A stretch of 45,663 nucleotides of DNA, taken from contig JAEUUT010000048.1 of assembly GCA_016787415.1 (NCBI GenBank), positions 1 to 45,663 of the forward strand. The letters run 5' to 3'. Position numbers and translations under genes: made by a program. How positions within the stretch are numbered: position 1 is the stretch's first letter; the number at the start of each line of letters is the position of its first letter. The notes beneath the pieces were generated by a model that had not been told where the DNA came from, searched no databases, and saw only the letters and a program-made list of their open reading frames with translations. Shown one piece after another: positions 9,554 through 44,834 of the stretch. This DNA comes from Saprospiraceae bacterium (GTDB taxonomy: Bacteria; Bacteroidota; Bacteroidia; Chitinophagales; Saprospiraceae).

Positions 9554-9893
9554 GATAATAAGGGTTTTAAAACAGGTTTGTGAATACTACACAGTATACT
9601 GAATGGAAATTTTGTCACATGATCAATCGTGACAATTTGCAGGAGCAAAAGTGAGGGGATGTTTTTTGCCCAACAATCCCATGAAAATGGGATGATGCGT
9701 GTGTTCGCATACAAAGTATTCGGAGCAGGCAACCATTCAAAGCGGAAAGACGCCAATCCTGCTGGATGCAGGGATTGGCCGTTTGCATGATTTGTTTATT
9801 CAATGTTAAAATTCAAAATATTAACCGTTGATAAGCAATATACTACCGCTGCCTGTTGTTTAAATACCGATTTTAACCTTATAAATTTTTTAA
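9554..9893. other. Intergenic spacer with two hairpins
   Basis: A 340-base divergent spacer. It contains an interrupted dyad TTGTCAC-N10-GTGACAA (9612-9618/9629-9635), which could be a regulator half-site pair for the minus-strand gene. It also has a GCCAATCC/GGATTGGC hairpin (9752-9779) that resembles a terminator without a strong T run. The last 100 bases are AT-rich. No convincing gene or TAnnTTTG box was found. Confidence 0.5.
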
Positions 9894-9908
9894 ATGCCTT
9901 TCAGGCCT

Positions 9909-10145
9909 ATGGAAGAAACCTACACATATGATGCGCTGGTACAGTATCTCTACCACGAACTTTCGGCACAAGAAGTTGTCGAAATGACCGGTTCTTTGGA
10001 AGAGGATATTGAAATGCTGGCAGTTTTTCAAAGCCTGGCCACAGCCAAAGCAGAGTTTCCGAAAGTGCAATTCATGCCCTCTTCCGGAACGATCAACAAC
10101 ATCCTGCGGCACAGCGCCCAGTCTATGCTGGAAGTGCAATCCTGA
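9909..10145 (+). CDS. Small conserved Bacteroidota protein, unknown function
   Basis: A 78-aa acidic, helical cytoplasmic protein (MEETYTYDALVQYLYHEL, then SAQEVVEMTGSLEEDIEML). The pattern 'YTY-DALVQYLYHELSAQE' and a C-terminal INNILRHSAQ resembles short anti-sigma-factor-like proteins common in Bacteroidota, but there is no zinc-finger HxxxCxxC. An upstream ATG at 9894 would add five residues; ATG 9909 is chosen by resemblance to homologues I recall. It is monocistronic, closed by the hairpin at 10166-10206. Confidence 0.6.
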   Translation: MEETYTYDALVQYLYHELSAQEVVEMTGSLEEDIEMLAVFQSLATAKAEFPKVQFMPSSGTINNILRHSAQSMLEVQS

Positions 10146-10165
10146 TTGTTTGTTTCCGGCAATGA

Positions 10166-10206
10166 AAACATGAGTCGCTCCTCAATAGGGGCGGCTCATG
10201 TTGTTT
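10166..10206 (+). terminator. Hairpin terminator with AACATGAG arms
   Basis: AACATGAGTCGCTCC pairs with GGGGCGGCTCATGTT (two G-U pairs in RNA), followed by GTTTT. It lies just downstream of the small gene. The outer stem is the same as that of the hairpin at 25016-25070. Confidence 0.75.
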
Positions 10207-10323
10207 TATGGCAATTGCTTTACAAAAAGGCGGGTTTCAGTGATGCTTGTTTCAACCTTTTGCCGGCATGAACGTCCAAGTGCTTTGTGATTCATCTATC
10301 TTTTCGTTACCAAATCCATCGAT

Positions 10324-13405: not shown

Positions 13406-13476
13406 TGGGTCATGGTGTAATGGTAACACAGCAGATTTTGGTTCTGTTATTCAGGGTTCGAGTCCTTGTGACCCAA
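13406..13476 (+). tRNA. tRNA-Gln (UUG)
   Basis: A 71-nt cloverleaf: acceptor TGGGTCA pairs with TGACCCA, D arm with TAATGGTAA, anticodon arm GCAGA-TTTTGGT-TCTGT giving anticodon TTG, and T arm with GGTTCGAGTCC. CCA is not encoded. The first base being T (pairing A) is normal for tRNA-Gln. It is followed immediately by a terminator. Confidence 0.96.
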
Positions 13477-21431: not shown

Positions 21432-22625
21432 TCAAATGAACTGAAGCAGGTCAAACTTCTGACCCAGTACCTTTTCTGCATCTGCATCCAGCCAGCCATG
21501 CAGCAGGGTGGCGTATACCTGTCTGAAATCGATTTTGTATTTTAAATCGCCATCGTCCAGATCGCTCAAATCGGGCAGTGGATTTAAAAGGCCTTTTTCC
21601 CGAAGCGCGCCGCCCAGAAAAATCATGTTGTTGGCAGTGCCATGATCGGTTCCACCGGAGGCATTTTGCGACACACGGCGGCCGAACTCGGAAAATGTAG
21701 CCAGCAACACGTCATTCCATTTGCTGTTGGTTTTCATATCCTTGATAAAAGCAGCCAGTGCATCGTTCATTTCCTGAAAAAGGCGTTTTTGCTGGCCTTC
21801 CTGATTGATATGGGTATCAAAACTGCCCAACGACACGTAATAAACGGATGTGTCGGTATCGGCCAGTATGAGCGAAGCAATCGTTTTCAGTTGTTTGCCC
21901 AGGCCTGTGGCGGGGTATGCAGAAGAGATAGGTTTTCGCCTGCTTTGCTCATACAGGTAATCGGCCGAAGAAAGTGTTTCTGCCATGGTTTTGTACAGAT
22001 AAGCCACTGGCGCTTCTGCTTCTATATGCTGATGAGCGGCTGAATAATCGGCAAAATACTGGCTGTGTGCGCTTTCATACAGGCGTTTTGGGTCTTGCAA
22101 TGCCAGGCCCTTTCGTTGTTCGCCCTTGAGAGCAAAACTCAGCGTGTCGTCTATTTCTATGGCTGCCGATGGCCTGCCGGCGCATTGGGCATCCAGGTAA
22201 CGGCCAATCCAGCCTGTTTGCCAGTATTCGGAAGCCGCGCTCGCCGAATGCCAGATATCCATACTTCTGAAATGAGAGCGATCGGGATTGGGATAACCCA
22301 CGCTGTTGAGCACTGCCATTTCTCCCTGATCGTACGCATTTTTCATGGCAGTAAGCACGGGGTGCAGGCCCGCCTCGTCGCCGAGGGCCAGCGATGTTTC
22401 ACGTGGAACAGCGATGCGTTTGCGTTCCCTGTAATAAATATCATTGCGTACGGGAATGACGGTGTTGAGGCCATCGTTGCCTCCGCTCATTTGAAGTACG
22501 ACCAGTACTTTACCGTTGGGGGCAAGGGTGTTTTTCCCTTCAACGGCTTTCAAAAATTGAGGTACAAACAACGATGCCGTTGCCAAGGAACCTGCTTTGA
22601 GGAAATCTCTTCTTTTAATCAGCAT
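21432..22625 (-). CDS. DUF1501 secreted protein (sulfatase-like fold)
   Basis: A 397-aa protein beginning with a Tat-like signal (MLIKRRDFLKAGSLATASLF). The DUF1501 core is clear: KVLVVLQMSGGNDGLNTVIP, NPDRSHFRSMDIWHSAS, LGSFDTHINQEGQQKRL, LLATFSEFGRRVSQNAS and GGTDHGTANNMIFLGG. The family has an alkaline-phosphatase/sulfatase-like fold and metal-type residues (D, H). It is usually beside DUF1800, as here, with a 12-base gap, so the pair almost certainly works together in the cell envelope. The function is unknown. A parS-like site (22395-22410) lies inside the gene, encoding AVPRET. Confidence 0.9.
   Translation of the reverse strand: MLIKRRDFLKAGSLATASLFVPQFLKAVEGKNTLAPNGKVLVVLQMSGGNDGLNTVIPVRNDIYYRERKRIAVPRETSLALGDEAGLHPVLTAMKNAYDQGEMAVLNSVGYPNPDRSHFRSMDIWHSASAASEYWQTGWIGRYLDAQCAGRPSAAIEIDDTLSFALKGEQRKGLALQDPKRLYESAHSQYFADYSAAHQHIEAEAPVAYLYKTMAETLSSADYLYEQSRRKPISSAYPATGLGKQLKTIASLILADTDTSVYYVSLGSFDTHINQEGQQKRLFQEMNDALAAFIKDMKTNSKWNDVLLATFSEFGRRVSQNASGGTDHGTANNMIFLGGALREKGLLNPLPDLSDLDDGDLKYKIDFRQVYATLLHGWLDADAEKVLGQKFDLLQFI
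22395..22410. promoter_or_regulatory. parS-like ParB-binding site 1 (in DUF1501 gene)
   Basis: TGTTTCACGTGGAACA, one base away from the general consensus TGTTTCACGTGAAACA, and a hybrid of the two symmetric forms seen. Two further sites are 5.9 and 6.3 kb away. Confidence 0.75.
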
Positions 22626-27322: not shown

Positions 27323-28624
27323 ATGCAGTTTTACAGTACCAACACCCCTGCCCTGCGCGCAAGTTTGCAAGAAGCCATATTCAAAGGTTTGCCCGACGAT
27401 AATGGTCTTTATATGCCCGTTGAAATTCCACGTCTGCCGGATTCGTTTTTAAAAAACCTGGGCAACTATTCTTTTCAGGAAATTGCTTTTGAGGTAGCCA
27501 ATGCACTTTTACATGAAGACATCCCTGCTAATGATTTAAAGAAGATCATTGATACCGCCATTGATTTCCCGGCGCCGGTAGTACAACTGGATGATAACAC
27601 CTGCGTACTGGAATTATTTCACGGGCCGTCTTTGGCCTTCAAGGATTTTGGAGCGCGTTTCATGGCGCAAACCATGTCGTATTTTAACCGTTCGGAGGAC
27701 AAACAGTTGGTCATCCTGGTAGCCACATCCGGCGACACAGGCGGGGCAGTGGCCGCCGGGTTTTACAAAACACCGGGCATCCAGGTAGTGATCCTGTACC
27801 CTTCCGGCAAAGTAAGCCCCTTGCAGGAAAAGCAACTTACGGCCCTGGGGCATAATATCACCGCGCTGGAAATAGATGGTACTTTCGACGACTGCCAGGC
27901 ACTGGTGAAAAAAGCCTTTCTGGATCAGGAAGTAACACGTTCGGTGCGTCTCAGTTCGGCCAATAGTATCAATATCGCCAGGCTTATTCCGCAGTCATTC
28001 TACTACTTCGAGGCATACAAACAGGTTGTGCATCAAGGCAGGCCTGTCGTTTTTTCGGTACCTTCTGGCAACTTCGGCAACCTTACCGCAGGACTTCTGG
28101 CTCAAAAAATGGGATTACCTATTGAGCATTTTATTGCGGCTACCAATGCCAATGACGTTGTGCCTGAATACCTGAACACAGGCGCCTACACTCCCCGGCC
28201 ATCTCAACGCACTTTATCGAACGCTATGGATGTAGGTGCGCCTTCCAACTTTGCTCGCATGCTCGACCTGTATTGTTCCACGTGGAACAATATGCGGAAC
28301 GACATCAGCGGCTATGGATTTAGCGATGCAGCCACAGTGGAGGCCATGAAAGAAATACATACAAAGTACAACTACGTGATTGACCCGCACGGCGCTGTAG
28401 GCTACCTGGCACTAAAGAAGTACCAGGAGTCACATCCCGATCACTTAGGTATCATACTGGAAACAGCCCATCCTTCCAAGTTTATAGAAGACGTGGAAAG
28501 TATTCTGGAAAAACAAGTACCCATTCCTGAAAGGCTGGCGGTGTTGCACGATGCACAGAAAGTGTCGGTAAATCTGAGTACACAATACGACAACTTCAAG
28601 ACCTGGTTGCTGGAGCACTTTTAA
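27323..28624 (+). CDS. thrC: Threonine synthase
   Basis: A 433-aa PLP enzyme converting O-phosphohomoserine to threonine. PLP lysine is in FHGPSLAFKDFGARFM; the phosphate/PLP loops are VATSGDTGGAVAAGF and PSGNFGNLTAG. Other conserved parts are STNTPALRASLQEAIFKGLP at the N-terminus and IDPHGAVGYLAL near the end. Length is standard for the short (type 1) class. It is monocistronic, with a parS-like 22-bp palindrome inside (28271-28292, encoding YCSTWNN) and a 36-bp parS-containing palindrome after the stop. Confidence 0.96.
   Translation: MQFYSTNTPALRASLQEAIFKGLPDDNGLYMPVEIPRLPDSFLKNLGNYSFQEIAFEVANALLHEDIPANDLKKIIDTAIDFPAPVVQLDDNTCVLELFHGPSLAFKDFGARFMAQTMSYFNRSEDKQLVILVATSGDTGGAVAAGFYKTPGIQVVILYPSGKVSPLQEKQLTALGHNITALEIDGTFDDCQALVKKAFLDQEVTRSVRLSSANSINIARLIPQSFYYFEAYKQVVHQGRPVVFSVPSGNFGNLTAGLLAQKMGLPIEHFIAATNANDVVPEYLNTGAYTPRPSQRTLSNAMDVGAPSNFARMLDLYCSTWNNMRNDISGYGFSDAATVEAMKEIHTKYNYVIDPHGAVGYLALKKYQESHPDHLGIILETAHPSKFIEDVESILEKQVPIPERLAVLHDAQKVSVNLSTQYDNFKTWLLEHF
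28274..28289. promoter_or_regulatory. parS-like ParB-binding site 2 (in thrC)
   Basis: TGTTCCACGTGGAACA, a perfectly symmetric 16-mer centred in a 22-bp perfect palindrome (28271-28292). The GTTCCACGTGGAAC form is used as parS in other bacteria such as Pseudomonas. Confidence 0.85.
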
Positions 28625-28687: not shown

Positions 28688-28723
28688 ACGCTTTCAATGT
28701 TCCACGTGGAACATTGAAAGCGT
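28688..28723. promoter_or_regulatory. parS-like site 3 in a 36-bp perfect palindrome after thrC
   Basis: An 18+18 perfect palindrome with no spacer whose centre (28698-28713) is TGTTCCACGTGGAACA, identical to site 2. Outer arms read ACGCTTTCAA/TTGAAAGCGT and are followed by seven As. It lies in the thrC-lpd gap 64 bases after the thrC stop, so it may also fold as a hairpin at the end of the thrC transcript. Confidence 0.85.
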
Positions 28724-31220: not shown

Positions 31221-32315
31221 TCAGTTTTTTGTATCAAAAGTCAATTTGTAGTGATACGTCACAAACAACAGGATAGCCAGAAGTACGATAGCGCCTGCCT
31301 GGTGCAATACGCCCAATACCACAGGAATTCCGCCGTTGCAGTTGATCAGGGTAAATATACCAAGCAATACCTGAATACCCAGCATACTCAGCAATGCAAT
31401 TGTTCCTGAACGCAATGCAGGCGCCTTCCGCGTATCCGCAGCCGTACGCCACACAAAATAAATCATCAAACCAGAAAGCAGGTAAGCCGTGTTGCGATGC
31501 AAAAACTGAATCAGGGTTGGCATAAAAATATCGCTGTCATAATGCTGAAAATTTTCAGCAGTCCAGTTTGCAGTATCCAGCAACAAGGCCGGCAGATAAC
31601 TTCCATGCATGTCAGGCCAGGTTGGGTACGACAAGCCGGCTTTGGTGCCCGACATCATGGCGCCCAATGCAATTTGTACAAATGCCACGCCGACCATTGT
31701 CCACAAAAATGCAAGCCCGTTCTTTTTCATTACATCGGCTGACTTGCGTATGCCTTCGGGCTTAAAAGCAATAAACGTCGTCCAAAGCAAGTAGGAGAAA
31801 ATGATGATAGCCATACACAGGTGCAAAGTCAGGTTGTAGGCATTTACCCAGGGGCGTTTAATCAGTCCGCTGGCTACCATGATCCATCCGAAAAAACCTT
31901 CCAGGCCGGCCAGTGCTACTACGATCAGGAGTCTGGGGAGCAGGCGCTTTGAAAACATGCCTTTCATCAAAAACCAACCAAATGGAATGATAAAGACCAG
32001 AAACATGAGCCGGGCCCACAGTCGATGGAAGTATTCCCAGAAGTAAATAAACTTGAATGCATCCAGGCTCATTCCCTGATTGATCTTATGGTACTGAGGC
32101 GTCTGTTGGTACAGTTCGTAGGCCGACTGCCAGGCGGCTTCCGAAAGAGGCGGCAGGGTACCTGTCACAATCTCCCAGCGCGTGATGCTCAATCCGCTGC
32201 CCGTGAGCCTTGTAATGCCTCCCAATGCAATTTGAATTAAAATCATGACCAGCCCGGTGATGAGCCATATTTTAACCGCGCGAGGAATAGCGGTGTCTTC
32301 TGAAAATCGAAACAT
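31221..32315 (-). CDS. ctaA: Haem A synthase (COX15/CtaA)
   Basis: A 364-aa inner-membrane protein that converts haem O to haem A for cytochrome c oxidase. Eight TMs in two four-helix repeats, with GGITRLTGSGLSITRWEIVT, FIYFWEYFHRLWARL, LTLHLCMAIIIF, GLSYPTWPDMHGSYLP, FLHRNTAYLL and LGVLHQAGAIVLL, giving the haem histidines (EYFHR, LHLC, LHR, LHQA). A GTG start at 32351 would add 12 residues but its G is the last base of a TAnnTTTG box (32351-32358), so ATG 32315 (MFRFSEDTAIP) with a 30-base leader is preferred. ctaB is not here. The gene borders the candidate origin. Confidence 0.95.
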   Translation of the reverse strand: MFRFSEDTAIPRAVKIWLITGLVMILIQIALGGITRLTGSGLSITRWEIVTGTLPPLSEAAWQSAYELYQQTPQYHKINQGMSLDAFKFIYFWEYFHRLWARLMFLVFIIPFGWFLMKGMFSKRLLPRLLIVVALAGLEGFFGWIMVASGLIKRPWVNAYNLTLHLCMAIIIFSYLLWTTFIAFKPEGIRKSADVMKKNGLAFLWTMVGVAFVQIALGAMMSGTKAGLSYPTWPDMHGSYLPALLLDTANWTAENFQHYDSDIFMPTLIQFLHRNTAYLLSGLMIYFVWRTAADTRKAPALRSGTIALLSMLGIQVLLGIFTLINCNGGIPVVLGVLHQAGAIVLLAILLFVTYHYKLTFDTKN

Positions 32316-32350
32316 CAGAAATGGATTTTTTGATTCGATGAATTTTGACA

Positions 32351-32358
32351 CAAAAATA
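32351..32358 (-). promoter_or_regulatory. -7 promoter box of ctaA
   Basis: Minus-strand TATTTTTG fits TAnnTTTG, 35 bases upstream of ATG 32315; it decides the start codon of ctaA. Confidence 0.55.
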
Positions 32359-32974
32359 GAACGTTTGATTCGGCTACTTTCGAAAGGGTGATACCCCTTT
32401 ATTAATTTTAGATGATTTTAAATTAAAAACCTGCGGCCATCATCAGGGGTGTTAGTTTGTGGAAAACCTCATAACTGCACATACATTCCTCCAGGCTACC
32501 ATTAGTTACCACCTTTTTCTACAGGTTATGTGGAAAAAGGGGCCTTTGTAATCAGTATTTTGTGAAGTTGTTCACAGTATTTCGCAAAAATGTTGAAAAA
32601 CACAGCGTTTGTCGTTTCTCCAGCCCTTGTGTTGTTAACTACCGTTTGCAACGGAGCCGTTACAAACAGCGCGATCGTTGAAACCTGCTCATGTGTATAA
32701 ATTCTCCGTCCTGATGTGAATGACAGTTAATGAAACACAGGGTTTTCCACATACGTGTATTGGTTTTATGCTGTTCATTTTCAGTTTTATAGACATGTTA
32801 TTATTTGTTATGTTTATAACTGTTTCAAACAAGAAGTTGGCTTACTGAAAACGTTCAAAATGAAGAAATTGTAAATTTTTACCTCCTGACAGCAGAATAA
32901 AACTTCGCGTTGCGGGGGAGAACATTTTCATTTATACTGTGTTTTTTAAAACAAAATCCACATTTCACATCCTT
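32359..32974. other. Candidate chromosomal replication origin (oriC)
   Basis: The longest gene-free stretch in the window (about 620 bases), between divergent ctaA and the SRAP gene. TTTTCCACA, a common DnaA-box variant of TTATCCACA, occurs exactly at 32458-32466 (minus), 32529-32537 (minus) and 32743-32751 (plus), and again at 33051-33059 (minus) just inside the next gene. Relaxed boxes include TTGTTCACA at 32568-32576 and AAATCCACA near 32954. AT-rich segments that could unwind lie at 32401-32430 and 32795-32820. The parS-like sites are 4-10 kb to the left. dnaA is not adjacent, as is often so in Bacteroidota. No ORF or RNA gene was recognised here. Confidence 0.65.
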
Positions 32975-33655
32975 ATGTGCGGTCGTTACTCCTTCGCGCC
33001 TACCAAAAAGCAAAAAGCCCAACAACTGGATGCTTTGAAACAGCCCCCAGTGTGGAAAATTCGTTTCAACCTGGCGCCTACCCAATCGGCTTATGTTATT
33101 GCAAATAACAATCCTGCCGAGATCAGGGAAATGAACTGGGGGCTGGTTCCTTCCTGGAGCCGGAATGGTGTGAACAATGGAAAACTGATCAATGCCCGCT
33201 CCGAAACCATTTTTGAAAAACCCTCCTTCCGCGAAGCCGTTTTCAGCAGGCGCTGCCTTGTGCCGGCAGACAGTTTTTATGAATGGCGCAAAGAACCCGA
33301 CGGGCGAAAACTTCCCTATCGCATTTTCCTGAAAAATGGCGACTTGCTCATGATGGCAGGAATTTGGGAACAGTGGGGAGGTGGTACCAACGTACAACAT
33401 ACGTTTTCCATTCTTACCACCGGGCCCAATACTGAAATGGCGTCGCTGCACAATCGAATGCCGCTCATTTTGCCAACAGAAACGGCACAGCAAAAATGGC
33501 TGGGAGATTTGTCCGAATCATCACTGAAAGAAATGCTGGCGCCTCCTGCCGATGGCTTGCTCGATATGTACCGCGTATCGGAACGGCTGAATAGCACTGG
33601 GGTAGATGAGCCGACACTACATGAAGAAGTGGCGGATGCCTTGCGATTGTTTTAA
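32975..33655 (+). CDS. SOS-response-associated peptidase (SRAP; YedK/HMCES family)
   Basis: A 226-aa protein that forms a covalent thiazolidine link with abasic sites in single-stranded DNA and so protects them at forks. The start is fixed at ATG 32975 because catalytic Cys2 must follow Met1 (MCGRYSFAPT); the open frame starts upstream at 32939. Other family motifs are visible: RFNLAPTQSAYVI, MNWGLVPSWSR, INARSETIFEKPSF, RCLVPADSFYEWRK (conserved E) and MASLHNRMPLIL (active-site H). It lies right at the candidate origin; whether that placement matters is unknown. Confidence 0.95.
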   Translation: MCGRYSFAPTKKQKAQQLDALKQPPVWKIRFNLAPTQSAYVIANNNPAEIREMNWGLVPSWSRNGVNNGKLINARSETIFEKPSFREAVFSRRCLVPADSFYEWRKEPDGRKLPYRIFLKNGDLLMMAGIWEQWGGGTNVQHTFSILTTGPNTEMASLHNRMPLILPTETAQQKWLGDLSESSLKEMLAPPADGLLDMYRVSERLNSTGVDEPTLHEEVADALRLF

Positions 33656-36163: not shown

Positions 36164-37441
36164 ATGACCATCCTTTTGCTCGGCTCCGGTGGCCGCGAAC
36201 ATACATTTGCCTGGAAACTGGCTCAAAGCAAAAAATGCAGCCGACTGTTTATTGCACCCGGAAATGCGGGTACTTCCGAGTGCGGAGAAAATGTGCCGCT
36301 CGACCCGCTGGATTTTAATGCGGTCGGCCGGTTTGTACTCGAACACAAGGTCGAGATGGTGGTAGTAGGTCCTGAAGAGCCGCTGGTGCGTGGTATTTGG
36401 GATTATTTTCAGGAAAAAGATGACTTGAAAAATATTCCGGTCATTGGCCCGTCCAAAGCAGGAGCAGTCATGGAAGGTAGCAAGGCATGGTCGAAAAAAT
36501 TCATGCAACGCCACCAGATACCCACGGCTGCTTACCGGGAGTTTACAGCTGCCGAACTAGAATCAGGCGTAGAATATCTGCGCCAGCACTCCTTACCCAT
36601 TGTGCTCAAAGCCGACGGGCTGGCTGCCGGCAAGGGGGTGGTAATTTGCCAGAAGCATAAAGAAGCCGAACTGGAATTCAGGGCGATGCTTGATGGTAAA
36701 TTCGGTGCGGCGGGCGAACGCGTGGTGGTGGAAGAATTTCTTACTGGTATAGAATTCAGCGTTTTTGTTCTTACGGATGGAAAAACCTACAAAATTTTGC
36801 CGGAAGCCAAGGACTACAAACGCATCGGCGAAAAAGATACCGGCCCCAATACAGGCGGAATGGGCGCCGTGAGTCCCGTGCCGTTTGTAGACGATGTCAT
36901 GTGGCAGAAAGTGGAAGAGCGTATTATTGCCCCTACAGTCAAAGGCCTCCGAAAAGAAAAAATCGTATACAAAGGGTTTATCTTTTTTGGACTGATCAGT
37001 GTAGCCGGCGAGCCCTATGTCATAGAATACAATTGCCGTATGGGCGACCCGGAAACGGAAGTGGTACTGCCACGGCTGAAAAACGACCTGGTACAATTAT
37101 TTGAAAACTGTGCCAAAGGAACGCTGGGCCGTGTGCGCATCCGTGCCGACAAAAAAATTGCCACCACTATTTTTCTGGTGAGCGGCGGCTACCCCGATCA
37201 CTATGATAAAGGAAAAGTAATGAGTGGGCTGGATCAGGTAAAAGGCAGCCTTGCATTTCATGCAGGCACCCGCAGGCAGGGAAATGAGGTGCTGACCAAT
37301 GGCGGGCGGGTACTGGCACTCACCAGCCTGGGTAAAGACTTAAAGGCGGCTATCCGAAAATCGCGGCGCAACGCAAAAGTGGTTCAGTTTGAAGGAAAAT
37401 ATTATCGGCGCGACATCGGCAAGGATTTAGAGTCTTTGTAA
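36164..37441 (+). CDS. purD: Phosphoribosylamine-glycine ligase
   Basis: GAR synthetase, an ATP-grasp enzyme of step 2 in purine synthesis; 425 aa is standard. It starts ILLLGSGGREHTFAWKLAQS and has VVVGPEEPLVRGIWDYFQE, GPSKAGAVMEGSKAWSKKFM, VLKADGLAAGKGVVIC (ATP-grasp), LPEAKDYKRIGEKDTGPNTG followed by GMGAVSPVPFV and EYNCRMGDPETEVVLPRL. Other pur genes are not adjacent. The start sits directly against a heptamer array (36143-36163). Confidence 0.97.
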   Translation: MTILLLGSGGREHTFAWKLAQSKKCSRLFIAPGNAGTSECGENVPLDPLDFNAVGRFVLEHKVEMVVVGPEEPLVRGIWDYFQEKDDLKNIPVIGPSKAGAVMEGSKAWSKKFMQRHQIPTAAYREFTAAELESGVEYLRQHSLPIVLKADGLAAGKGVVICQKHKEAELEFRAMLDGKFGAAGERVVVEEFLTGIEFSVFVLTDGKTYKILPEAKDYKRIGEKDTGPNTGGMGAVSPVPFVDDVMWQKVEERIIAPTVKGLRKEKIVYKGFIFFGLISVAGEPYVIEYNCRMGDPETEVVLPRLKNDLVQLFENCAKGTLGRVRIRADKKIATTIFLVSGGYPDHYDKGKVMSGLDQVKGSLAFHAGTRRQGNEVLTNGGRVLALTSLGKDLKAAIRKSRRNAKVVQFEGKYYRRDIGKDLESL

Positions 37442-37499: not shown

Positions 37500-40400
37500 T
37501 TGAAACACTTCCTGCCACATTTTATCCAGGAAAATTACCGAAACGGCATACAGGAAGGCCAACTAAATGCCTTCACGATGTTCGTCGATCTCAGCGGGTT
37601 CACCCAACTGACGGAGACGCTTATGCGCAAAGGCTCGGAGGGCGCCGAAGAATTGTCGGTAGCGCTCAATTATATCTTCCAGCCGATGGTACACCTGGTA
37701 TACGAGCAGGGAGGTTTCATTCCATATTTTGCAGGCGATAGTTTCACAGCAATTTTTCCTACGACATCCAATAGCGCTGCTTCCCAGGAAAACCTGGAGG
37801 TCGGACGCCGTGTCATTTCAACCGCACAGTCTTCCCTCACCCGGTTTGCAGAAGCACAGGCCAACGAGGAATCCTTGTTGTTTCAGCACCATATTGGTAT
37901 CAAAATCGGCCTCTCACAAGGAACGGTGGAATGGGGAATAGTGGGTAAAGAATGCAAAGCCTACTACTTCAGAGGAGCGCCCATCGACGGCTGCGCCCAG
38001 GCCCAGGGTAAGGCGGCCAGCCTGGAAATTGTGGGCGATACCTTGCTGAAACCCTTCCTGCATCCGCTCCAACTGGAAGCGGAAGACCTGCCGGATGAGT
38101 ACTACAAAATTATCCTCCAGCCGGAAAAAGAACAAACACCGGTTAGTAACCCGGAGCCCAGACACTTACCTGAACCGGATCCGCAGTTGATGGCGCAATT
38201 TCTTCCCAAGGAAGTATTTGCAAATCAGGAAATCGGAGAGTTTCGCAATGTGGTGAGCGTATTTATTTCGTTTTCCGGCGTTGAATACCACACAGCGCTC
38301 GATCATTTTGCCTCCGTCGTATTGCAGGAATGCGACAATTTTGGCGCTTATCTGAAAGAAATTGACTTCGGCGACAAAGGCGGAGTCATCTTTTGCCTTT
38401 TTGGCGCACCCATTTCGTTCGAAAACAATGTAGAGCGCGCACTCGAATTTGTAGCTGCTATCCAGGAACAAATGGGCTCGCTGGAAAACCTAACGGGCGC
38501 CAAATACCGCATCGGTATTACGTCCGGACTGGCATTTACAGGTGTCATCGGAAGTGCCGAACGCTGCCAGTATGCCGCCGTAGGCGCCCGCGTCAACCTC
38601 GGCGCCCGTCTTATGATGAAGGCCGGCTGGGGCGAAGTGATGGTAGACGAAAACGTTCAACGCAACCGCAACTTCAAGTTTACATACCGGGGAGAAGGGA
38701 AATATAAGGGATTTACCAAACCGATACCCACGTACGTGCTGACGGGTAGAAACCTGCTTGGACGAGCGAGTTTTTCGGGCGATTATTTTGGCAGGGCTGC
38801 CGAACTTCGGCAATTGGTAGAATTTGCCCACCCACTACGCGAAGGACAATTTGCCGGTGTGGCCTATGTGTTTGGCGAGGCTGGTATTGGCAAAAGCCGG
38901 CTTAGTTACGAGCTTCGCCGGCAAATTCGCGACGCCATGACGGTGAGTTGGTTTACTTGCCAGAGCGACCAGATTCTGCGCAAACCCTTCAATCCTTTTA
39001 TTTATTTTCTCAAAAACTACTTCGAACAGAGCCCGGAAAACACACACGGCCGCAATCGGGAACTGTTTGAGCAGAATTTTATAGAACTGCAATTTGAACT
39101 CACGGAAAGCAAGCACCCGGAAGCCGATGCTGTTCGCCGTGAAATAAGCCGGACACAAAGCGTGCTCGCCGCCATGCTCGGCATACATTACCCGGGCTCG
39201 TTGTGGGAACAACTCGACGGCCGGGGCCGCTACCAGAACGGTTTGGCTGCCATGGCCAATTTGTTCGTAGCCGAGTCGCTGTTGCAGCCCGTCGTGATAG
39301 AACTCGAAGATGCGCACTGGTACGATGAAATGAGCCACGAATTTTTGGCGCAATTTATCCGGCGCGCACAATCCTACCCCTTGCTGTTTCTGGCAACCAG
39401 CCGTTATGAAGACGATGGTTCCAAATCATACCTGTTCAAAAAAAATGTGCTGGACGAGTTGTCGATCCAGAACGTGGAAGTCGACCTCAATTTCCTGCAT
39501 CCGGAAGACCTGAAGGCTTTTGCAGAAGCACGACTGGGCGGAAACCTGCATCCGGAACTGCTCGAATTGCTGCAACGCATGACGCAGGGCAATCCTTTCT
39601 ATATCGAACAAATGGCCGAGTATTTCCGCGAAGCCAATTTGCTCAAAAATACGGGCGGCTTGCTGCAACTGAAAAACCAGGACGTGCAAATGAATGATTC
39701 CGTCAAGGAAATCATGATGGCGCGTATCGACCGGCTCAGCGGACTGGTGAAAGAAACGGTAAAAGCGGCAGCGGTGATCGGCCGCGAATTTGAACTTCCC
39801 GTTCTGTCGGCCGTCATGGCCAAACAGGAAGAGTTTATCCGGAAAAACGGCGACATGGAAACGGTGCTTCGCGAGCAAATCCAGACTGCCGAGAAGTGGC
39901 AGGTATGGTATGCCATGAATGAACTGCGCTATATTTTCCGCCACTCGCTCCTGCGCGAAGCCGCCTACGATATGCAATTGCGCACCCGCCTGCGCGAACT
40001 GCACCAACTCATAGCAGATGCGATCGAACATTTGTATCCCAATTCGGAGGAACGGTATGTCGACCTCGCATTCCACTACGAACAGGCGGAAGAAGAGCGC
40101 AAAACGAATAAATACCTCGAAAAAGCCGCGCGCTACTCCCAGCGAAATTTCCTGAACAGGCAGGCACTGGCTTTTTATGGAAAATTGATTGCCAATACCC
40201 TCGATAAGGATAAAAAAGGCAAAAAAGTTATCAAACTCATCCTCCGAAAAGGTACCGTCCACGAACTTGTAGGGCAATGGGATGAAGCCGAACGCGATTA
40301 CCGCATGGCGCTCGAACGCGCTAAAAACCTGAACGACTGGTATTTGATCGGGCGCAGCAACCGCCGACTGGGTCAGTTGCTGATGTTGCGCGGCAATTAC

Positions 40401-41573
40401 CCCGAAGCCAAAAAATACCTCGACGTAGCCATTACCTGTTTCGACCTGGCCAACGACCAGATCGGGATTGCCAAAACCTACGGCAATCTGGGCACTTTCT
40501 TTTTCCGGCAGGGTAGTTACGATGCAGCCAAAAGTTGGTTCGCCAAAGCCATCGAAATCAACCGGGCCAACAACCGCGAAACGGAAAATGCCTCTATCGT
40601 GGCCAATCTCGGTCTCATTTTTATGAACCAGGGCCACTACGACGAAGGTATCCGCTGGCTGGAAGAACAACTCGACATCGTAGAACGGGTGGCCGACAAA
40701 CAGGGCCTTACCACCCTGTACACCAACCTGGGTATTATTTACCTCGAAAAAAACAGCCTCGACAGCGCCCTGCTCTGCCTCGAAAAAGGCCTGGCTTATT
40801 CCGAAGAACTGGGCAACAAACTATTTATGACCATCTGCATCGGCTCCATCGGTTCCGTTTGGGAAAAGAAAGGCGACTACGCCAAAGCCATGCAAAATTT
40901 CGAACGCGACCTGCTGCTGGCCCGCGAACTGGGTGACAAACAGGGCACGGCTATTGCCTGCGGGCTCATCGGCGACCTGCTTTCCACGATGGGCCAGTTC
41001 GATGCCGCTATTGAATACCTCGACCAGAACCTGGCGCTTAGCCGCGAACTCAACTACAAAAAAGGCATTGCCAAAGCGCTGAATACCCTGGGCGACACCT
41101 GGTTTTTTAAACGCGACTACGCTAAAAGTATCCGCTACTACAACGAAGCTATCGAACATGCCCGCGAAATGGGCAACCGACTCGTGCTCGGCTATTCGCT
41201 GGTGGAAAAAGGCCTGGTACACCTGCACTCCGGCGAAATTGCCGCCGCCCGCCAATTACTGGAAGAGGGCCGCGATATTGCGCTGGCACTCGGCAATGCC
41301 GATCTTACCTTTAGTTCGAATATCCTGCGCGCCCAGGTCATCATTGCTGAAGGCAACAAACCCGAAGCCTTGCGCCAACTCCAGCAATTGCTGGCGCTGG
41401 CCCGCACCGAACGGGAAGAGGCGGCCGTACATTTTGAACTGCGGCGTGTGGCCGACAACCCAATTCCACACCACCTGCGCGCCATGACCTTGTACAAATC
41501 CCTGTACGATCGCACACCGCAGCATATCTATCGGATGCGACTGGATGAGTTGGAGAAGGAAGGAAGGGTGTAG
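37500..41573 (+). CDS. Tandem adenylate-cyclase/AAA ATPase/TPR protein (soluble adenylyl cyclase architecture)
   Basis: A 1357-aa protein. Cyclase domain 1 (about 22-205) has MFVDLSGFTQLTE (D30) and FAGDSFTAIF (D80), the two metal Asps, and IKIGLSQGTV, but IDGCAQAQ replaces the VN..AR motif. Cyclase domain 2 (about 250-415) lacks the first Asp (FISFSG, S257) but has FGDKGGVIFCLFG (K293) and VGARVNLGAR (N366, R370). One composite active site is thus likely, as in animal soluble adenylyl cyclase. A P-loop ATPase follows: GEAGIGKS (459-466), Walker B VVIELEDAHW (598-607). TPR repeats fill about 850-1330 (NLGTFFFRQGSYDAAKSWF and similar). The start is TTG at 37500; the first in-frame ATG is residue 27, too late. 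No close neighbour on its strand. Confidence 0.9.
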   Translation: MKHFLPHFIQENYRNGIQEGQLNAFTMFVDLSGFTQLTETLMRKGSEGAEELSVALNYIFQPMVHLVYEQGGFIPYFAGDSFTAIFPTTSNSAASQENLEVGRRVISTAQSSLTRFAEAQANEESLLFQHHIGIKIGLSQGTVEWGIVGKECKAYYFRGAPIDGCAQAQGKAASLEIVGDTLLKPFLHPLQLEAEDLPDEYYKIILQPEKEQTPVSNPEPRHLPEPDPQLMAQFLPKEVFANQEIGEFRNVVSVFISFSGVEYHTALDHFASVVLQECDNFGAYLKEIDFGDKGGVIFCLFGAPISFENNVERALEFVAAIQEQMGSLENLTGAKYRIGITSGLAFTGVIGSAERCQYAAVGARVNLGARLMMKAGWGEVMVDENVQRNRNFKFTYRGEGKYKGFTKPIPTYVLTGRNLLGRASFSGDYFGRAAELRQLVEFAHPLREGQFAGVAYVFGEAGIGKSRLSYELRRQIRDAMTVSWFTCQSDQILRKPFNPFIYFLKNYFEQSPENTHGRNRELFEQNFIELQFELTESKHPEADAVRREISRTQSVLAAMLGIHYPGSLWEQLDGRGRYQNGLAAMANLFVAESLLQPVVIELEDAHWYDEMSHEFLAQFIRRAQSYPLLFLATSRYEDDGSKSYLFKKNVLDELSIQNVEVDLNFLHPEDLKAFAEARLGGNLHPELLELLQRMTQGNPFYIEQMAEYFREANLLKNTGGLLQLKNQDVQMNDSVKEIMMARIDRLSGLVKETVKAAAVIGREFELPVLSAVMAKQEEFIRKNGDMETVLREQIQTAEKWQVWYAMNELRYIFRHSLLREAAYDMQLRTRLRELHQLIADAIEHLYPNSEERYVDLAFHYEQAEEERKTNKYLEKAARYSQRNFLNRQALAFYGKLIANTLDKDKKGKKVIKLILRKGTVHELVGQWDEAERDYRMALERAKNLNDWYLIGRSNRRLGQLLMLRGNYPEAKKYLDVAITCFDLANDQIGIAKTYGNLGTFFFRQGSYDAAKSWFAKAIEINRANNRETENASIVANLGLIFMNQGHYDEGIRWLEEQLDIVERVADKQGLTTLYTNLGIIYLEKNSLDSALLCLEKGLAYSEELGNKLFMTICIGSIGSVWEKKGDYAKAMQNFERDLLLARELGDKQGTAIACGLIGDLLSTMGQFDAAIEYLDQNLALSRELNYKKGIAKALNTLGDTWFFKRDYAKSIRYYNEAIEHAREMGNRLVLGYSLVEKGLVHLHSGEIAAARQLLEEGRDIALALGNADLTFSSNILRAQVIIAEGNKPEALRQLQQLLALARTEREEAAVHFELRRVADNPIPHHLRAMTLYKSLYDRTPQHIYRMRLDELEKEGRV

Positions 41574-43328: not shown

Positions 43329-44834
43329 CTAAGCCTTCTCCCACGAAACCCCTTCTTTCCCATCCTTCACCTGAATACCGGCGGCAGCCAGGGCGTCGCG
43401 GATTTTATCGCTCGAAGCCCAGTCTTTTTGGGCCCGGGCATTGGCGCGCAGTTCCAGGATCAGGTTCATCAGGTTATCCACGGTGCCGTTGTCATCCTGT
43501 GCGGCTTCTTCCCGAAATCCGAAAATATCGAACAGGAAAGTGCTGAAAACCGTTTTCAGGCGTTCGATCACCCAGGGCGCTATATCGTTGTGCGGGATAT
43601 GTCCGTGGGTGAGTTTGTTCACATAACCGCCGAGTTCGTTGAGCGCGGCAATGGCGATGGCCGTGTTGAAATCGTCGTCCATGCCCTGGTAGGCATCTTC
43701 GATAAGGGCAAGGATGGCGCGGTCATGCTCCGATTCGGAGCCATCGAAGTCGCGGGCGTCTACCGGCAGTTTTTGCAGGAGCGCGTAGGTATCCATCAAC
43801 TTTTTAAAGCCTTTTTCTGCGGCCTGTAGTCCGTCGTCGGTGATGTCGAGCGTGCTGCGGTAGTGGGCCTGGAGCATAAAAAAGCGCACTGCCATAGGCG
43901 AGTAGGCTTTGCTGATGTGCTCGCTGTCGCCGCTGAACAGTTGGGGCGGATTGATGGTATTGCCGTCTGATTTCGACATTTTTTTGCCGTTCAGGAGCAG
44001 CATATTGGTATGCAGCCAGTAGTTGGCCGGCGAGCAGCCGCAGGCGCCATTGCTTTGGGCTACTTCGTTTTCGTGGTGGGGAAACTTGAGGTCATTGCCG
44101 CCGCCGTGGATATCAAATGTTTTACCAAGGTATTTGGTGCTCATGGCGCTGCATTCGAGGTGCCAGCCTGGGAAACCTGTCGACCAGGGGCTTTTCCACA
44201 CCATGAGGTCTTGCGGACGGGCTTTCATCCAGATAGCAAAGTCGGCCGGGTGGTTTTTTTCATCCTGATTTTTCAGGTTGTCGCGGCTTTCGGCCATAAG
44301 TTCGTCGATCACGCGGCCCGACAATTGACCGTATAGGCCCGGATGATCCTGCGAAAATTTGATGACATTGAAATAAACCGAACCATTGCGTTCGTAGCCA
44401 TACCCGCGTTCGAGGATACTTTCCACCATTTCGATTTGTTCGGGGATGTGGCCGGTGGCACGCGGCTCGATGCTGGGCGCCAGGTTGTTGAAAATCCGCA
44501 TCATGTCGTGGAAGCCCACGGCATAGCGCTGGGCTACTTCCATCGGTTCGATTTGGGCCACTTTGGCGCCTTTTGCCATGCGGTCTTCCCCGTCGTCGGT
44601 GAGGTGGCCAACGTCGGTGATATTGCGTACATACCGTACCCGGTACCCCAGGTGGAGCAGGTAGCGATAGATGACGTCGAAACTGGTGAAGGTGCGGCAG
44701 TTGCCCAGGTGTACATCGCTGTACACGGTAGGGCCGCATACGTACATGCCGACGTAACCCGGGGTGATGGGATTGAAAATTTCTTTTTTGCCGCTAAGGC
44801 TGTTGTATAATTTGAGGACGCGCGGTTGTTTCAT
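43329..44834 (-). CDS. cysS: Cysteine-tRNA ligase
   Basis: A 501-aa class I aminoacyl-tRNA synthetase that charges tRNA-Cys. YVCGPTVYS-DVHLGNCRTFT carries the HIGH motif (HLGN) and first zinc Cys, FPGWHLECSAMSTKYLG carries further zinc ligands, FPHHENEVAQSNGACG the catalytic helix, and KKMSKSDGN the KMSKS loop. The C-terminal DALR-like and anticodon-binding part is complete. The start ATG 44834 follows a -7 box at 44842-44849 by seven bases, so its leader is very short. Confidence 0.97.
   Translation of the reverse strand: MKQPRVLKLYNSLSGKKEIFNPITPGYVGMYVCGPTVYSDVHLGNCRTFTSFDVIYRYLLHLGYRVRYVRNITDVGHLTDDGEDRMAKGAKVAQIEPMEVAQRYAVGFHDMMRIFNNLAPSIEPRATGHIPEQIEMVESILERGYGYERNGSVYFNVIKFSQDHPGLYGQLSGRVIDELMAESRDNLKNQDEKNHPADFAIWMKARPQDLMVWKSPWSTGFPGWHLECSAMSTKYLGKTFDIHGGGNDLKFPHHENEVAQSNGACGCSPANYWLHTNMLLLNGKKMSKSDGNTINPPQLFSGDSEHISKAYSPMAVRFFMLQAHYRSTLDITDDGLQAAEKGFKKLMDTYALLQKLPVDARDFDGSESEHDRAILALIEDAYQGMDDDFNTAIAIAALNELGGYVNKLTHGHIPHNDIAPWVIERLKTVFSTFLFDIFGFREEAAQDDNGTVDNLMNLILELRANARAQKDWASSDKIRDALAAAGIQVKDGKEGVSWEKA

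Follow-up and report, generated by a model that had tools for sequence, protein, structure and literature searches.

A published search rule for basal unwinding systems tolerates up to 2 mismatches to TTATCCACA in the DnaA box, allows a spacer of up to 16 bp, and requires three or more triplets of the form 3'-NAN-5' (PMC8287927). The spacer length peaks at 10-13, single-box modules are allowed by the rule, the usual triplet is 3'-GAT-5', and the I190A change in DnaA, which concerns single-stranded DNA binding, abolishes strand separation (PMC8287927). Asn187 of Bacillus subtilis DnaA contacts the middle base of the triplet (PMC10721633). Bipartite origins, in which a gene lies between two box clusters, are described as oriC1-dnaA-oriC2 in C. 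difficile and B. subtilis (PMC7561715).

The oriC as a kind of element is already known. An origin that lies away from dnaA is hard to locate in a draft genome, and drafts make up most of the relatives found here. The oriC of Cytophaga hutchinsonii, a Bacteroidetes origin, was reportedly used in replicative plasmids by Xu et al. in 2012. In the literature searched, supplements excepted, we found no published Saprospiraceae origin and nothing on a DnaA-trio together with oriC in Bacteroidetes.

Here we analyze a 45,663-nucleotide stretch of DNA (hereafter, the window) from a Saprospiraceae bacterium, for which an initial annotation had proposed an origin of replication at 32359..33059. The proposal of an origin is supported by a conserved and ordered core, by the closeness of parS sites, by a sign change in the averaged GC skew, and by the presence of the window's two least stable 35-bp stretches; the proposed limits are to be replaced by 32316-32974, with a working core at 32397-32466. 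From sequence comparison, we assign a probability of roughly 95% to the reading that this gap is the chromosomal oriC of a Saprospiraceae-type chromosome, located away from dnaA.

Results

The gap between ctaA and SRAP contains an array of DnaA boxes

The predicted origin is flanked, as had been proposed, by divergent genes, namely ctaA on the minus strand and the SRAP gene on the plus strand (Table 1). It may not be the longest non-coding stretch, in that the interval 9554-10323 between listed ORFs may exceed the 659-bp gap. An RNA element was considered and set aside: matches to Rfam within 32000-33300 were all below threshold, and the only tRNA in the whole window is a tRNA-Gln at 13406. 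Elsewhere in the window, at 37500-41573, an ORF of 1357 amino acids matches adenylate/guanylate cyclase, AAA, and many TPR repeats.

Table 1. Coordinates of the predicted origin, its elements and its neighbors in the window
Feature	Position	Strand	Remarks
parS GTTTCACGTGGAAC	22396..22409		perfect site, 3 found genome-wide
parS GTTCCACGTGGAAC	28275..28288		perfect site, within the threonine synthase gene
parS GTTCCACGTGGAAC	28699..28712		perfect site
ctaA/COX15 (haem A synthase), left neighbor	31221..32315	-	PF02628, E 1.6e-89; start ATG 32315
Predicted oriC gap	32316..32974		659 bp, divergent ctaA and SRAP on either side
Conserved origin core	32397..32466	-	DnaA box, 11-base spacer, three in-phase triplets, AT-rich segment
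Predicted DNA unwinding element	32397..32431		adjoins the triplets; least stable 35 bp of the 45.7-kb window (nearest-neighbor energies)
Three triplets, predicted DnaA-trios	32438..32446	+	CATCATCAG, i.e., 3'-GAC-TAC-TAC-5' from the box, on the strand DnaA would capture
Weak second box position, overlapping	32450..32458	-	AAACTAACA, 5 mismatches here
Core DnaA box TTTTCCACA	32458..32466	-	1 mismatch from TTATCCACA; kept in 4/5 compared genomes, window included
DnaA box position	32515..32523	+	TTTTCTACA here; TTATCCACA in 2/4 close relatives
DnaA box TTTTCCACA	32529..32537	-	conserved only in part
DnaA box position	32568..32576	+	TTGTTCACA here; TTATTCACA, TTATACACA, TTATGCACA in 3/4 relatives
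DnaA box TTATACACA	32692..32700	-	TTATCCACA in 2/4 close relatives
DnaA box TTTTCCACA	32743..32751	+	exact TTWTNCACA in 5/5 compared genomes; TTATCCACA in two
Second AT-rich, easily melted segment, SRAP side	32784..32818		second least stable 35 bp of the window
SRAP (SOS-response-associated peptidase), right neighbor	32975..33655	+	PF02586, E 2.4e-62; ATG 32975, MCGRYS start

The 9-mer TTTTCCACA is indeed found at 32458 (-), 32529 (-), 32743 (+), and 33051 (-), and a fifth time in the window at 44192 (+). The chance expectation of 0.35 originally given for it is too low, as dinucleotide shuffles of the window yield a mean of 0.88; the excess is nevertheless real, for none of 100 shuffles reaches 5 sites and the largest number is 3. 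In the whole genome (6.11 Mb) the 9-mer occurs 185 times, versus 140 for the pattern read backwards. Only three of the four clustered sites, however, lie in the gap. The fourth, at 33051, falls 76 bases inside SRAP, in coding sequence, and the 9-mer is absent there from two of the four closest relatives compared; because of both features we dropped it from the array, as it is probably a coding coincidence. Another three TTTTCCACA sites occur within 930 bases at G000:C132:14294-15223 (among the first 100 of the 185 places), with no match to the core model described below.

Three further box positions were identified in the gap. The one at 32692 is an exact TTWTNCACA; those at 32515 and 32568 each have one mismatch here, and are exact boxes in two and three of four relatives, respectively. 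The boxes at 32515 and 32529 form an inverted pair, CCTTTTTCTACA-GGTTA-TGTGGAAAAAGG (32512-32540). The 675 bp starting at 32392 contain 5 exact TTWTNCACA, the coding site at 33051 among them, against a window mean of 0.165 per 675 bp and a maximum elsewhere of 1. In the close comparison, which comprises the window and genomes G034, G016, G030, and G006, the substitutions at 32515, 32568, 32692, and 32743 mostly preserve a DnaA box. A block of 27 bases upstream of SRAP (GTTCAAAATGAAGAAATTGTAAATTTT, 32853-32879) is identical in all five of these genomes, with weaker matches in a few further loci; it is possibly the SRAP promoter or a second element on this side of the origin.

An ordered core with in-phase triplets and easily melted DNA

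Read on the minus strand, the order of the core is TTTTCCACA-AACTAACACCC-CTG-ATG-ATG-(GC-rich)-AT-rich. We compared 72 such elements, that is, the window and 71 others from the best 80 of 563 ctaA loci. The middle bases of the triplets (bases 22, 25, and 28) are T in 70, 71, and 70 of the 72, respectively; at least three in-phase triplets are present in 67 elements, while in either of the other phases there is none that has them (0/72). Base 24 is invariant, as are bases 15-17 (ACA), which belong to the second box position; this position is of the TCCACA type in some relatives, and has 1-2 mismatches in 17 of the 72 elements. When set against the published rule, the window has 1 mismatch to TTATCCACA, a spacer of 11 bp, and 3 triplets; 56 of the 72 elements fall within the rule and 16 outside it. 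The weight matrix with which the elements were collected was seeded with the window's pattern, including TGATGATG, and hence the conservation of the motif among its matches is partly selected.

The AT-rich segments noted in this region are also borne out by calculation, as the gap holds the window's two 35-bp stretches of lowest stability. Among the eight least stable stretches of the window, those in the gap rank 1st and 4th at a length of 50 bp, and 2nd and 3rd at 100 bp. The plus strand has a terminator-like hairpin, with T-rich DNA after it, at the core's edge (32383-32400; one such site was found, with 0.7 expected).

The DnaA protein of this genome is 477 amino acids long. Its Asn and Ile residues align with Asn187 and Ile190 of B. 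subtilis DnaA, according to residue numbers counted from the printed alignment, and the motif in question reads GGRDHSTVI here versus GGRDHTTVI in B. subtilis.

We infer from this anatomy that strand opening takes place at the core. DnaA would dock on the core box at 32458, with the other boxes at 32515-32751 assisting, and a DnaA oligomer would then grow along the triplets (32438-32446) on their plus strand. Opening of 32397-32431 would permit the helicase to be loaded and two forks to leave, and ParB, at the nearby parS sites, would subsequently help segregate the newly copied region.

The core is conserved upstream of ctaA in relatives

Conservation within the genus was first seen by blastn, without a matrix. 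A search with 32300-33100 against 60 genomes, including the genome itself, gave 31 genomes with a match, and the match covers the core region (about 32440-32477) in 28 of 36 same-genus relatives. Among 30 loci cut from these matches, again including the window's own, ctaA and the core are both present in 29, the exception being L025; SRAP is visible on the examined stretch in 16 of the 30.

A larger set, the best 80 named loci among 563 confirmed relatives of ctaA, was scanned for the core with the weight matrix; the scan took no account of position relative to ctaA. The core was found in 71 of these 80 loci. All 71 carry it on the same strand as ctaA, at a distance of 94-385 bp (median 188) upstream of the ctaA match. 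The other nine scored below 20, and were therefore left out of the triplet, distance, box, and skew counts but kept in the parS count. By title, the named loci are mostly from Saprospiraceae or Chitinophagales metagenome genomes, and also include Phaeodactylibacter luteus, P. xiamenensis, Flavilitoribacter nigricans, and Lewinella cohaerens. Two contigs with a Saprospiraceae-type ctaA and origin core are filed under other taxa, namely L058 under Thermoanaerobaculia and L102 under Flavobacteriaceae; both are likely misbinned or mislabelled.

The density of boxes beside the core was compared in 68 named loci, using 600 bp beside the core plus the core's first 75 bp, with control stretches taken from the same loci (these control stretches included the ctaA-side array described below). 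The mean is 2.79 exact TTWTNCACA per 675 bp, versus 0.17 in the controls, and the count exceeds that of every control stretch in 42 of the 68 loci. For TTWTCCACA alone, the values are 1.72 and 0.12.

We also built sequence models of the core. Model R1 consists of 60 rows, 18 of which, the window's own row included, occur letter for letter in genomes of the genus. In the present genome R1 has a single dominant match, the core (E 1.2e-13), followed by one at 0.01. Strong matches (E <= 1.6e-5) were obtained in 32 of 37 genomes of the genus, including this one, and in 14 of the 19 among them that lie outside the model; in 5 of the 37 a strong R1 match to the core is absent. One metagenome genome, G033, contains two strong copies of the core (G033:C6:1294 and G033:C361:6028), perhaps from two organisms binned together. 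At the level of the class, the first model matched 51 of 247 genomes at E <= 0.01, many of them weakly. Model R2, which includes members of other families, matched 20 of the 247 at E <= 0.001, this genome included, and left 227 without a match under these stricter filters; 7 of its 19 match genomes outside the genus were among its sources. The first-model match in G115 (E 0.002) was taken as false, as it is absent from the R2 matches at E <= 0.001 and lies 0.2 Mb from the parS of that genome.

The core is linked to parS

The three parS-like sites of the initial annotation are exact. They are the only perfect sites found in this genome, all on this contig, and lie 3.7-10 kb from the core (GTTYCACGTGRAAC). 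parS is present in 32 of 36 same-genus relatives; in the 28 genomes of the genus with both parS and a strong core, the two are on the same contig in 22, at 0.4-20 kb, and on different contigs in 6. Among the named loci (best 80 of 563), 38 of 80 contain parS, and none contains the pattern read backwards.

Outside the genus, 15 of the 19 R2 genomes have parS (GTTNCACGTGNAAC), on the contig of the core in 11 of the 15, at 1.3-16.6 kb, and on another contig in 4; none was found in the remaining 4 of the 19. Ten of the 12 outside genomes that were not used in R2 have parS, and in 7 of these 10 it is within 8.3 kb of the core. At the level of individual genomes of other families, parS is near the core in G055, G185, and G153; no parS was found in G168 or G287.

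GC skew changes sign at the core on average

This assembly consists of 299 contigs, and within the window the skew is weak: its mean is -0.013 to the left and +0.010 to the right, with the cumulative G-C minimum at 36259. The skew was also averaged over the named loci, oriented by ctaA, with 45-65 loci per bin and the 1.5 kb containing ctaA left out. To the left of the core the mean ranges from -0.027 to -0.041 in five bins; to the right it is +0.054, +0.029, +0.014, and +0.009 in four bins, the outer two being within 1.4 standard errors of zero. Gene orientation may contribute to this averaged skew.

Three genomes with long contigs were examined individually. In G055 (a contig of 2.85 Mb in a genome of 2.9 Mb), all 19 samples to the left of the core are negative, and the only sample to the right is +0.068. 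The strand use of an 8-mer, the sole one tried, chosen because it ranked among the most skewed in the left samples, is 37+/10- to the left of the core and 12+/26- to the right, and 22+/9- versus 12+/26- outside the training stretches (Fisher p 0.0016); the walk of this 8-mer turns at 1.26 Mb, versus the core at 1.33 Mb, and turns back after 2.57 Mb. In G168, a single contig of 5.08 Mb, the core (3.71 Mb) lies about 0.2 Mb from the sampled GC minimum (about 3.49 Mb) and about 1.1 Mb from the keto-skew minimum (2.62 Mb). In G007, of the same genus (a contig of 3.67 Mb, 60 samples), the cumulative skew is noisy, with a minimum near 0.2 Mb versus the core at 3.20 Mb; parS in this genome is 14 kb from the core. 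The lack of a clean pattern in G007 counts against reliance on skew in this genus.

Gene neighborhoods differ between families, and dnaA is elsewhere

In family f20, the Pfam neighbors of the core are NadA and SurA_N (G168 and G287) or NadA (G055); in family f35, the neighbor is an AMP-binding enzyme gene (G185 and G153). A tblastn search of the 3-kb core loci of these families gave no match to ctaA or SRAP. The core thus retains its anatomy in the absence of ctaA, and is more than just a regulator of that gene.

As had been proposed, dnaA is not adjacent to this locus; it is on another contig, C130. An origin adjacent to dnaA was considered as a candidate and rejected, as the 3.3-kb dnaA locus on C130 contains no exact TTWTNCACA. 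In three genomes dnaA shares a contig with the core but is distant from it: the separation is 0.41 Mb (G055), 1.78 Mb (G168), and 1.93 Mb (G007).

A second box array around ctaA in relatives

In relatives, the exact boxes extend beyond the gap, into and past ctaA. Such boxes occur 0.3-1.6 kb from the start of the core in 47 of 71 loci, with 62 sites within ctaA and 70 outside; the latter are mostly just past its stop, in a frame walk that failed in at least L037, L073, and L086. By our own count, 19 loci have, close to where ctaA ends, a pair of boxes on the same strand spaced 12 bp apart. This second array is seen in loci such as L060-L067 and L074-L076, at about +0.7 to +1.4 kb from the core. 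It suggests that many relatives may have a bipartite origin, arranged around ctaA. The far side of ctaA in the window has a single TTTTGCACA (31133), located, as in L032, 79 bases beyond the stop of ctaA; the second array was apparently lost from the window, or never present there.

Discussion

Could the conserved element instead be a cis-regulatory region of ctaA, and perhaps of SRAP as well, at which DnaA or another protein regulates transcription? DnaA can work as a transcription factor, and the element is located just upstream of ctaA in 71 of the named loci (the best 80 of 563). Yet other families place it by NadA/SurA_N or AMP-binding enzyme genes, in 3-kb loci with no match to ctaA or SRAP; parS is near it in three of those genomes (though none was found in the two others, G168 and G287), and in G055 the skew changes sign at the element. 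We thus regard ctaA regulation as very unlikely. It is also highly improbable, in our assessment, that the locus is merely a neighbor of the origin, conserved through origin-linked synteny, while replication starts at another site within tens of kb. Skew and parS do locate an origin only to tens of kb, and the G-C minimum of the window is not in the gap; however, the gap is the one place found in the window that combines boxes, triplets, and the least stable DNA, and the element stays close to parS in families whose gene neighbors are different.

A cluster of boxes that titrates or reactivates DnaA, akin to datA or DARS, would account for the dense boxes in the gap and for those in and past ctaA in relatives, but the ordered anatomy, the lowest duplex stability, the parS linkage, and the skew switch are expected of an origin and not of a titration site, making this explanation extremely unlikely. 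As for a chance cluster of the 9-mer in AT-rich DNA, the 185 copies in the genome and the coding location of one of the four sites speak for it, whereas the shuffles do not reproduce the five sites, most substitutions in relatives leave the box consensus intact, and the enrichment in boxes recurs over 68 related loci. Conservation refutes this candidate, and we consider its likelihood negligible. We read the gap between ctaA and SRAP as very likely oriC.

We lean slightly towards a broader proposal, namely that a single portable origin core, about 65 bp long, is common to Saprospiraceae and to at least the two other Bacteroidia families whose loci we examined. Its triplet code would be specific to the lineage, 3'-GAY-TAY-TAY-5' (in the commonest form, the top strand is CTR-ATR-ATR). 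The neighborhoods of the core would have changed while the anatomy and the link to parS were kept, without the core staying beside dnaA; in many Saprospiraceae it would be one half of a bipartite origin around ctaA, and the second box array would lie where that gene ends. If this proposal is true, even a fragmented metagenome assembly would reveal the origin directly. Estimates of replication rate, origin plasmids, and studies of strand bias would become feasible for this group with a sequence model that flags the likely origin in 32 of 37 genomes of one genus. The set of cores is, in addition, a natural and divergent test set for the DnaA-trio idea, in that the middle base of the triplets is almost fixed while the flanks are lineage-specific. 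What seems to be new here is the precise core, the triplet code, the use of the core as a marker for likely origins in drafts, and, in relatives, the additional box array at ctaA. This triplet code may already be recorded in the per-phylum trio logos in the supplements of PMC8287927.

Comparison with known systems

The basal unwinding system of B. subtilis oriC, formed by DnaA-boxes 6/7 and DnaA-trios (PMC6669920, PMC8287927), resembles the predicted core in its box, spacer, three or more central-A triplets on the captured strand, and AT-rich DNA; the equivalents of Asn187 and Ile190 are also kept in the DnaA of this genome. It differs in that the triplets here are 3'-GAC-TAC-TAC-5' and not 3'-GAT-5', the second box is weak, and the origin is away from dnaA. 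The latter is a feature shared with oriC of E. coli (PMC6669920, PMC8287927), which likewise has boxes beside an AT-rich unwinding region. Unlike in E. coli, the neighbors here are ctaA and SRAP, and in-phase triplets are clear, whereas the published score for E. coli is relatively weak (PMC8287927).

Bipartite oriC1-dnaA-oriC2 origins are comparable to the arrangement in many relatives, with boxes on both sides of and inside ctaA; the intervening gene, however, is ctaA and not dnaA, and on the far side the window has only the TTTTGCACA mentioned above. Lastly, the origins in DoriC and Ori-Finder are predicted from skew, boxes, and indicator genes, with trios as an extra criterion (PMC10225481). 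In contrast, we defined the element described here by aligning draft genomes, and used its linkage to parS as a check.
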